DNA of 64,000 nucleotides from Mycobacterium intracellulare ATCC 13950. GTDB lineage: Bacteria; Actinomycetota; Actinomycetes; Mycobacteriales; Mycobacteriaceae. A model generated the notes under the pieces. It saw only the letters and a list, made by a program, of their open reading frames with translations, was not told the origin of the DNA and searched no databases. The stretch's first letter is position 1. The number at the start of each line of letters is the position of its first letter. Shown here piece by piece: positions 18,482 to 20,094 of this stretch. The stretch spans positions 4,774,001 through 4,838,000 of the forward strand of contig NC_016946.1 in the NCBI RefSeq assembly GCF_000277125.1, in the 5' to 3' direction. The translations under genes were made by a program, and so were the position numbers.

Positions 18482-19129
18482 ATGCCCCACTACGTCCTGC
18501 CCGACCTGACCTATGACTACGGTGCGCTCGAGCCCGCGATCAGCGGCGAGATCATGCAGCTGCACCACGACGCGCATCACGCCGCCTACGTCAAGGGCGC
18601 CAACTCGACCGTCGACCAGCTCGCCGAGGCGCGTGCCGAGCGCAACCTCGCCCACTTGCCGGGCCTGGAGCGGACGCTGGCGTTTCACCTCGCCGGCCAT
18701 GCCTTGCACTCGATCTTTTGGACGAATCTCTCGCCGGAGGCCGCCGAAAGGCCCGAGGGGGAACTGGCCGCCGCCATCGACGAGTTCTTCGGCGGATTCG
18801 AGGCGTTCCGCGCCGAGATGACCGGGGCCACCTCCAGCGTGCAGGGCTCGGGGTGGGGCGCGCTGGCGTGGGACCCGATCGGGCGTCGTCTGGTCGTGCA
18901 CCAGATTCACGATCACCACATCAGCGTGGCGATCACCAGCACTCCGCTGCTGGTGTTCGACGCCTGGGAGCACGCGTTCTACCTGCAGTACCGCAACGTC
19001 AAGGCCGACTACGTCGACAGGCTGTGGTCCATCGTGAATTGGGCCGACGTCGCCGTCCGCTTCGAGGCCGCTCGCCGCGGCGACCTGTCCGGGCTACGCA
19101 GCAGCGACGAGATCGGCGGCGCGCGATGA
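18482..19129 (+). CDS. Fe/Mn superoxide dismutase paralogue
   Basis: A 215-residue superoxide dismutase of the iron/manganese family, aligned almost residue for residue with mycobacterial SodA. All four metal ligands are present at the SodA positions: His28 (in QLHHDAHH), His76 (in GHALHS), Asp160 and His164 (in [15 protein letters not shown]). It differs from SodA in the second-shell region and C-terminus (ending SSDEIGGAR), so it is a diverged paralogue. There is no signal peptide. The ATG follows GAGGGAGAGCC. Its stop overlaps the nrdF start (ATGA), so SOD and NrdF are made from one message. Metal specificity cannot be told from sequence alone. Confidence 0.92.
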
Positions 19130-20094
19130 GCATCCGATCGGTGGATCGAATGCGGGCGGTCAACTGGAATCGCCTGCCCGACCCCAAGGACGCGCAGGTA
19201 TGGGATCGGCTGACGGGCAACTTCTGGCTGCCGGAGAAGGTGCCGCTGTCCAACGACTCGGCGTCATGGCAGACGCTGACCGCGCAGGAGCAGCAGACGA
19301 CCGTGCGAGTGTTCACCGGGCTCACGTTGCTCGATACGACGCAGGCCACCGTCGGCGCGGTGTCGATGATCGCCGATGCGGTCACGCCCCACGAGGAGGC
19401 GGTGCTGACCAACATCGCGTTCATGGAATCGGTCCACGCCAAGAGCTACAGTTCGATCTTTTCGACGCTGTGCTCCACCCGCCAGATCGACGACGCCTTC
19501 GACTGGTCCGAGCGCAATCCGCACCTGCAGCGCAAGGCACAGATCGTCGTCGACTATTACCGCGGGGACGACGCCCTCAAACGCAAGGCGGCGTCGGTCA
19601 TGCTGGAATCGTTTCTGTTCTACTCCGGTTTCTACCTGCCGATGTACTGGTCCTCGCGCGGCAAGCTCACCAACACCGCCGACATCATCCGGCTGATCAT
19701 CCGCGACGAAGCCGTGCACGGCTTCTACATCGGCTACAAGTGTCAGCGCGGACTCGCCGAGCTTTCGGAACCAGAGCGGTCCGGCCACCGCGAGTACACC
19801 TACGAGCTGTTGAATGCGTTGTACACCAACGAGATTGATTATGCCCACGATCTGTACGACGGCCTGGGCTGGACCGATGACGTGCTGCCCTACATGCGGT
19901 TCAACGCCAACAGGGCCCTGGCCAACCTCGGGTACGAACCGATGTTCGGGCCGTCGGACTGCCGGGTGAATCCGGCGGTGCTCTCGGCGCTCGATCCCGG
20001 CGCCGGCGAGAACCATGACTTCTTCTCCGGGTCGGGCAGCTCCTATGTCATCGGCTCCCACCAGGCCACCGAGGACGCGGACTGGGACTTCTGA
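19126..20094 (+). CDS. nrdF: Class Ib ribonucleotide reductase small subunit NrdF paralogue
   Basis: A 322-residue R2 protein that would hold the di-metal tyrosyl radical for NrdE. All dinuclear ligands are visible: Asp70, Glu101, His104, Glu161, Glu195, His198, with radical Tyr108 in MESVHAKSY. The C-terminal TEDADWDF matches the tail that docks on the large subunit. It resembles NrdF2 of M. tuberculosis along its length but is not beside nrdE, nrdI or nrdH. It begins inside the stop of the SOD gene. R2 paralogues without a large subunit are known (Rv0233 NrdB, NrdF1); whether this one is active is unknown. Confidence 0.93.

Follow-up and report, generated by a model that had tools for sequence, protein, structure and literature searches.

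In Pseudomonas aeruginosa, the fumC-sodM operon is an iron-sparing system controlled by Fur, from which a manganese superoxide dismutase (SOD) is made when iron is scarce. The purpose of the stand-alone NrdF1-type proteins of mycobacteria, covered by the NCBIfam equivalog model NF010574, which we take to stand for M. tuberculosis NrdF1, is to our knowledge unclear. Manganese-responsive systems have been described in two other bacteria: the excerpted table of MntR-regulated genes of Corynebacterium diphtheriae contains an ABC manganese importer, nrdI-nrdF2 and sodA (PMC13001254), and according to PMC12421985, manganese starvation in Staphylococcus aureus lowers the demand for manganese, that of SOD included, with a small RNA suppressing the manganese-dependent SodA. 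The same source counts manganese among the metals kept from bacteria by their hosts.

The locus described here, a gene for a distinct type of SOD (labeled SOD2) followed directly by a gene for a NrdF1-type ribonucleotide reductase subunit, resembles each of these in part. As in the C. diphtheriae table, a manganese importer, an nrdF-type gene and a SOD gene would fall under MntR, but in that excerpt nrdF2 is accompanied by nrdI and sodA is separate and changes with the opposite sign, whereas SOD2 and NrdF1 are proposed here to form a single operon without nrdI. With fumC-sodM it would have in common a metal-responsive repressor and isozymes (a SOD among them) that do without the metal in short supply; here, however, that metal would be manganese instead of iron, and the partner is a ribonucleotide reductase subunit. 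Manganese demand, including that of SOD, would be cut as reported for S. aureus, yet by a replacement operon rather than a small RNA. Among the mycobacterial stand-alone proteins, the lone NrdF of genome G023 passes NF010574 (688.2, cut-off 687) and the NrdF studied here is nearest to that model, but it is paired with SOD2 and, because its score of 651 bits stays below the cut-off, it is called NrdF1-type by clade and not filed as an equivalog. We propose, giving it even chances of being right, that the two genes make up an accessory operon, in part carried on plasmids, which serves the response to manganese starvation under the control of MntR and in which SOD2 and NrdF1 would act as iron-using stand-ins.

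The SOD2-nrdF pair and its recurrence

The window, the whole stretch of 64 kb that was analyzed, covers positions 4774001-4838000 in a single-contig genome of 5.40 Mb; the features of the locus are collected in Table 1. The sequence-only reading of this DNA had described a SOD coupled by an ATGA overlap to a NrdF, both with intact active sites, and had seen no nrdE, nrdI or nrdH beside them, all of which held. The SOD metal ligands H28, H76, D160 and H164 are present, as are the di-metal ligands and the radical tyrosine of NrdF (D70, E101, H104, Y108, E161, E195, H198), and NrdE, NrdI and a NrdH-like ORF lie together ∼0.8 Mb from the pair and ∼4 kb from a second NrdF (72% identity). No SOD was found beside the housekeeping NrdF2 of the window genome, which encodes a second Fe/Mn SOD at genome position 190233-190820 (54% identity); many genomes of the genus have at least two NrdFs. 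SOD2 matches Sod_Fe_N and Sod_Fe_C in Pfam, has the ligands of the SodFM family, and shows the C-terminal water-coordinating histidine (His145) and the HXXXHH motif (HHDAHH) of the SodFM3 subfamily in the sense of PMC10172142. NrdF matches Ribonuc_red_sm and scores 452.8 bits with TIGR04171, the NCBIfam model of class Ib NrdF (cut-off 355); class Ib membership also agrees with its C-terminal tail, the part of NrdF that binds NrdE, and with the NrdE and NrdI identified by Pfam in the genome.

Table 1. Features of the SOD2-nrdF locus, in positions of the window.
Feature	Position	Strand	Remarks
DUF5078 gene, upstream neighbor	17781..18233		
Terminator-like hairpin closing the DUF5078 gene	18264..18293	+	
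Perfect 13-nt inverted repeat, 4-nt loop	18338..18367	not assigned	
Palindrome TTTGGCTACCCGAA	18421..18434	+	9/10 positions of TTCGG-N4-CCGAA; proposed MntR operator
TATGTT	18444..18449	+	possible -10 element, as read from the sequence
GAGGGAGAG	18471..18479	+	likely SOD2 ribosome-binding site, also read from the sequence
SOD2, Fe/Mn superoxide dismutase	18482..19129	+	215 aa; His145/His146/Val158
ATGA, overlap of SOD2 stop and nrdF start	19126..19129	+	
nrdF, NrdF1-type class Ib ribonucleotide reductase beta subunit	19126..20094	+	322 aa; C-terminus DWDF kept

The next gene downstream encodes a MMPL transporter on the opposite strand. The inverted repeat, which is GC-rich and has no T run, follows the upstream gene and precedes the promoter of SOD2, and a Rfam search of 17600-20400 matched no RNA element. 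Elsewhere in the window, a 580-aa ORF (24480-26222) encodes a single protein that matches both DsbD-like and ResA/TlpA-like thioredoxin domains.

Surveys of the genus (SOD matches of at least 69% identity in 7 of 297 genomes) and of the family (at least 70% identity in 13 of 401) gave 18 different genomes with SOD2. In 12 of these, spread over five GTDB genera, nrdF lies directly downstream (G000, G046 and G069 in the genus; G390, G476, G449, G334, G383, G440, G380, G467 and G538 in the family), with the aligned ends -1 to 45 bases apart, except for 338 bases in G380; six genomes (G120, G031, G143, G250, G458, G332) have SOD2 without an adjacent NrdF. By comparison, a same-strand NrdF within 3 kb downstream was not found for any of the 124 SOD matches with less than 66% identity in the loci examined (a few are duplicates; for 121 the sequence extends 1 kb or more downstream), and 28 new loci from a survey of the order (397 genomes; best match 67%) had no NrdF beside them. 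Among the 80 loci from a scan of genome contigs, the five best matches, in records named Rhodococcus gordoniae, Prescottella defluvii (twice), Dietzia aurantiaca and Mycolicibacter heraklionensis, have NrdF directly downstream, and no NrdF was seen at the remaining 75. Four of the five have an upstream stretch identical to that of a surveyed genome or of a plasmid and are therefore not extra cases, as opposed to M. heraklionensis. In Rhodococcus, plasmid pLW3 carries the pair, again with a four-base overlap of the genes, and the R. gordoniae contig is identical to pLW3 over 9778 bases; the pair can therefore move.

The adjacency is thus a recurring unit beyond chance and not an oddity of one strain, the outcome that the sequence-only reading had named as its refutation when it suggested the adjacency search and the trees, both of which were run: the pair occurs in the 12 genomes of five GTDB genera and in named records of four genera. 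No title or beginning of an abstract in the literature search described a SOD-NrdF operon, which is weak evidence of novelty since subscription papers were mostly outside that search. A phage origin was considered and dropped, as a phage collection gave only SODs below 60% identity. Plasmid plas1 of Prescottella equi carries a stand-alone nrdF amid small hypothetical genes (L367:2968-3993), and this NrdF falls among the other NrdFs in the tree, apart from the paired proteins.

A promoter palindrome shared with manganese importers

The 23 upstream regions of SOD2 include four that are identical to others, leaving 19 distinct promoters, several of them from close relatives. A palindrome, TTCGG-N4-CCGAA, is matched at a minimum of eight of its ten positions in all 19, and of nine in 18, at -59 to -75; among 3800 dinucleotide shuffles, 49 reach nine and 562 reach just eight. 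In the window, a -35 hexamer placed 17 bases 5' of TATGTT would start at 18421, within the palindrome; a scan of 18200-20250 with the sigma-70 consensus found no promoter.

The same palindrome precedes genes of manganese uptake. In 12 genomes we scanned all 23 Nramp matches over the cut-off and all 16 ZnuA-type matches, together with 11 MntR-type genes. The palindrome stands at 10/10 positions before the best Nramp gene (mntH) of G538, G334, G449 and G467; in G390 (10/10) and G380 (9/10) it precedes the ZnuA-type gene of a manganese-type ABC importer that is linked to mntR. Outside these six importer promoters the maximum was nine, reached once, at -444 of a Nramp paralog, and the other 14 of 14 ZnuA-type genes had no palindrome (eight positions or less). 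In a blind count of palindromes with 5-nt arms and gaps of 0-8 in the six importer promoters, which had been picked after the palindrome was already seen, TTCGG-N4-CCGAA ranked first (exact in 5/6, with one mismatch in 6/6; next palindromes 3/6). With a matrix built from the six importer sites, the 19 SOD2 promoters score between 12.9 and 24.0 bits; 18 of them have their best site at -61 to -77, L145 at -93. The matrix places its best site of the whole 64-kb window at 18419-18436 (17.1 bits; next 13.2; 95% of window tiles at 8.3 and 99% at 12.1 bits); this check is not blind because the training sites had been found by palindrome match. Mycobacterial mntH genes have a less good version of the site, with matrix scores of 16.7 (L245), 15.5 (L247), 11.6 (L246), 10.4 (L248), 10.4 (L249) and 7.6 bits (L251); mntH of the window genome thus has just a weak site (10.4 bits), and that of G069 has 7.6 bits.

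In Prescottella, the palindrome is also found at 10/10 positions and -146 before one SodA copy (L064, L171, L172), and at 9/10 before a GDT1-family gene beside the pair in L064 and L065. GDT1 proteins export manganese; in L065 (9605-10942, minus strand) this gene for a divalent cation transporter and one for a THAP4-like heme-binding protein adjoin the SOD2-nrdF pair. As a general rule the palindrome before SodA had to be given up, with eight positions or less in the other Prescottella SodAs that were read (L170, L289, L292, L293 and L294). Reading a whole regulon from GTTCGG-N4-CCGAAC with one mismatch was likewise abandoned, the 40-79 matches per genome in seven genomes (5-16 with a reversed control) being too many. 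LexA, NrdR and ECF-sigma sites were dismissed as the operator by eye only.

A candidate for the regulator is at hand, since a MntR-type protein was matched in 12 of the 12 genomes searched. The copy of the window genome scores 177.9 with the MntR model, below its cut-off of 350, and 78.8 with the DtxR model. In Dietzia aurantiaca, a MntR-type regulator and a ZnuA/ABC-3 importer are convergent to the pair (L066:9977-13297, minus strand), and G390 has a mntR-linked cluster that resembles this one. We infer repression by MntR because the palindrome of the pair also precedes manganese importers: SOD2-nrdF is probably under MntR repression and expressed when manganese is lacking. When Mn2+ is plentiful, MntR, a member of the DtxR family, would bind the palindrome over the promoter and block it, and when Mn2+ falls its release would allow one message to yield SOD2 and NrdF1 alongside the manganese importers. 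Among the ideas of the sequence-only reading, sharing of metal between the two proteins comes closest to this, the evidence being regulatory, through the promoter palindrome common with importers. If true, the palindrome would also be a candidate MntR recognition site for this bacterial family.

The palindrome could also be the site of another regulator, of the IdeR type, an oxidative-stress regulator or some other repressor, which would make the pair a stress operon that manganese does not govern. The weak site at the window genome's own mntH would fit this, as would its IdeR-type protein, which scores 323.8 bits with the DtxR model (cut-off 290). However, the best match to the IdeR/DtxR consensus is 11/19 in the window and 11-14 elsewhere, and TTCGG-N4-CCGAA fits the regions better. 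The other genes with the palindrome are manganese-type importers, 14 of 14 other ZnuA-type genes lack it, and a matching MntR-type protein occurs in 12 of 12 genomes searched, all of which speaks against another regulator. We regard a different regulator as improbable.

Candidate metals of the two enzymes

Control by MntR and manganese is the firmer half of the model, and the use of iron is a prediction. According to excerpts of PMC10172142, the metal preference of SODs follows two residues, the water-coordinating one and XD-2, which lies two positions before the Asp ligand, Val or Thr at XD-2 being common in iron enzymes and Gly or Ala in manganese enzymes, with exceptions stated there. SOD2 has the C-terminal His145 and Val158 at XD-2, the residues linked to iron preference, as the printed sequences show, whereas the housekeeping SodA, readable in 15 of the 18 SOD2 genomes, has Gln145 in 15/15. 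At XD-2 these SodAs have Gln or Met and in one case Gly, and otherwise not the Gly or Ala typical of manganese enzymes. No second Fe/Mn SOD was found at E 1e-20 in G334 and G383, and SOD2 is therefore no spare there; G390 has a fragment only. The sequence-only reading had reasoned from the chemistry of the Mn2-tyrosyl radical, whereas the SOD2 residues are those associated with iron preference.

Replacement by iron-using enzymes that spare manganese is the leading candidate mechanism, iron use being predicted for either protein. SOD2 would be an iron-preferring isozyme replacing the housekeeping SodA, and NrdF1 a spare class Ib beta subunit that would share NrdE as its partner and could form its radical from iron and O2. 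The cell would thus keep up its defence against superoxide and its supply of DNA precursors while manganese is spared. The simplest account of the recurring unit, the importer-type palindrome, the mntR neighbor in Dietzia and the iron-type SOD residues would be a manganese-starvation cassette with iron-using isozymes. If true, a replacement operon of this kind, taking both the removal of superoxide and the synthesis of DNA precursors over to another metal, would be unusual.

Regulation by manganese would not by itself require sparing: both proteins could be manganese enzymes, extra copies that capture scarce manganese, with the Mn2-tyrosyl radical of NrdF1 formed via the shared NrdI. NrdI is indeed present in the window genome, nrdI-nrdF2 is within the MntR regulon of C. 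diphtheriae in the excerpt of PMC13001254, and the XD-2 rule is not strict in that of PMC10172142. The combination of His145 and Val158 in SOD2, set against Gln145 in all readable housekeeping SodAs, and the lack of nrdI in the unit argue the other way, and we consider a pair of additional manganese enzymes unlikely.

Within the genus, the Gln145 of SodA goes along with SOD2, at 7/7 in the carriers compared with 43 Gln and 39 His in 82 other SodAs among the matches listed (p 0.017). A less biased set of 60 loci lower in the list (37 Gln, 23 His) gives p 0.086, and because descent is uncontrolled the link is a hint only. A simple rule is countered by an excerpt of the review PMC5855569, which calls the His-type SodA of M. 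tuberculosis manganese-preferring, although the PDB entry of this protein is named iron SOD.

Trees and loci with one gene of the pair

All 19 SOD2 rows, 13 paired and 6 alone, form one group with support of 100/99 in a tree of 43 chosen SODs, on which the label "paired" requires four changes, at least three of them forced. In a tree of 29 chosen NrdFs, the 13 paired and 2 lone NrdF1-type proteins are split from the 14 others by a branch with support of 100/99, with the placement of the Dietzia NrdF unsure because of a long-branch warning. One genomic slot holds SOD2 alone in G120 and NrdF alone in G023 and G064, and has the same neighbors in all three: a desaturase-reductase fusion at one end, and at the other a small ORF with a thiolase and a TetR-like gene (these two called by eye from the sequences). 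The palindrome is directly 5' of the lone nrdF in G023 and G064. Lone SOD2 and lone nrdF may be read as partner loss from an ancestral pair.

These loci bear on the suggestion of the sequence-only reading that the SOD limits superoxide near the NrdF cofactor or shields its radical. The overlap of the two genes and their recurrence together would be in line with such chemistry. It is nevertheless less likely because each gene also persists alone behind the palindrome, as in the slot of G120, G023 and G064. In all, SOD2 lacks an adjacent NrdF in six genomes and a NrdF1-type gene occurs without SOD2 in two, still preceded by the palindrome, which speaks against obligate chemical coupling, and the housekeeping NrdF2 of the window genome does without a neighboring SOD. 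The suggestion found no support here, and we hold it to be improbable.

G023 and G064, which lack SOD2 and have kept the palindrome and nrdF1, have a SodA with His145. A wider version of the manganese-sparing proposal can be drawn from this, which we advance tentatively and at somewhat less than even chances: once manganese is exhausted, a transferable cassette run by MntR would take both superoxide defence and the ribonucleotide reductase radical subunit over from manganese to iron, and the orphan NrdF1 proteins of mycobacteria would be its remnants where SodA is already of the His type. The stand-alone mycobacterial NrdF1-type proteins would then, if this is true, have a control signal and a testable role.

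The desaturase fusion of the slot (L149:9156-11174, minus strand, with equivalents in L144 and L150) joins a fatty-acid desaturase to domains of the FAD/NAD reductase and 2Fe-2S types, and it adjoins the slot with either gene alone (G120, G023, G064). P-type ATPases are expected to have a DKTGT motif. Beside the lone SOD2 of G031 and G250 lies a P-type ATPase-like ORF (L146:6205-7965, minus strand; L148:8958-10706, plus strand) with a CPC motif, an E1-E2_ATPase match in L148, and FVEADG or FVEVDG at the position of DKTGT; it may be a pump whose phosphorylation site has been lost.
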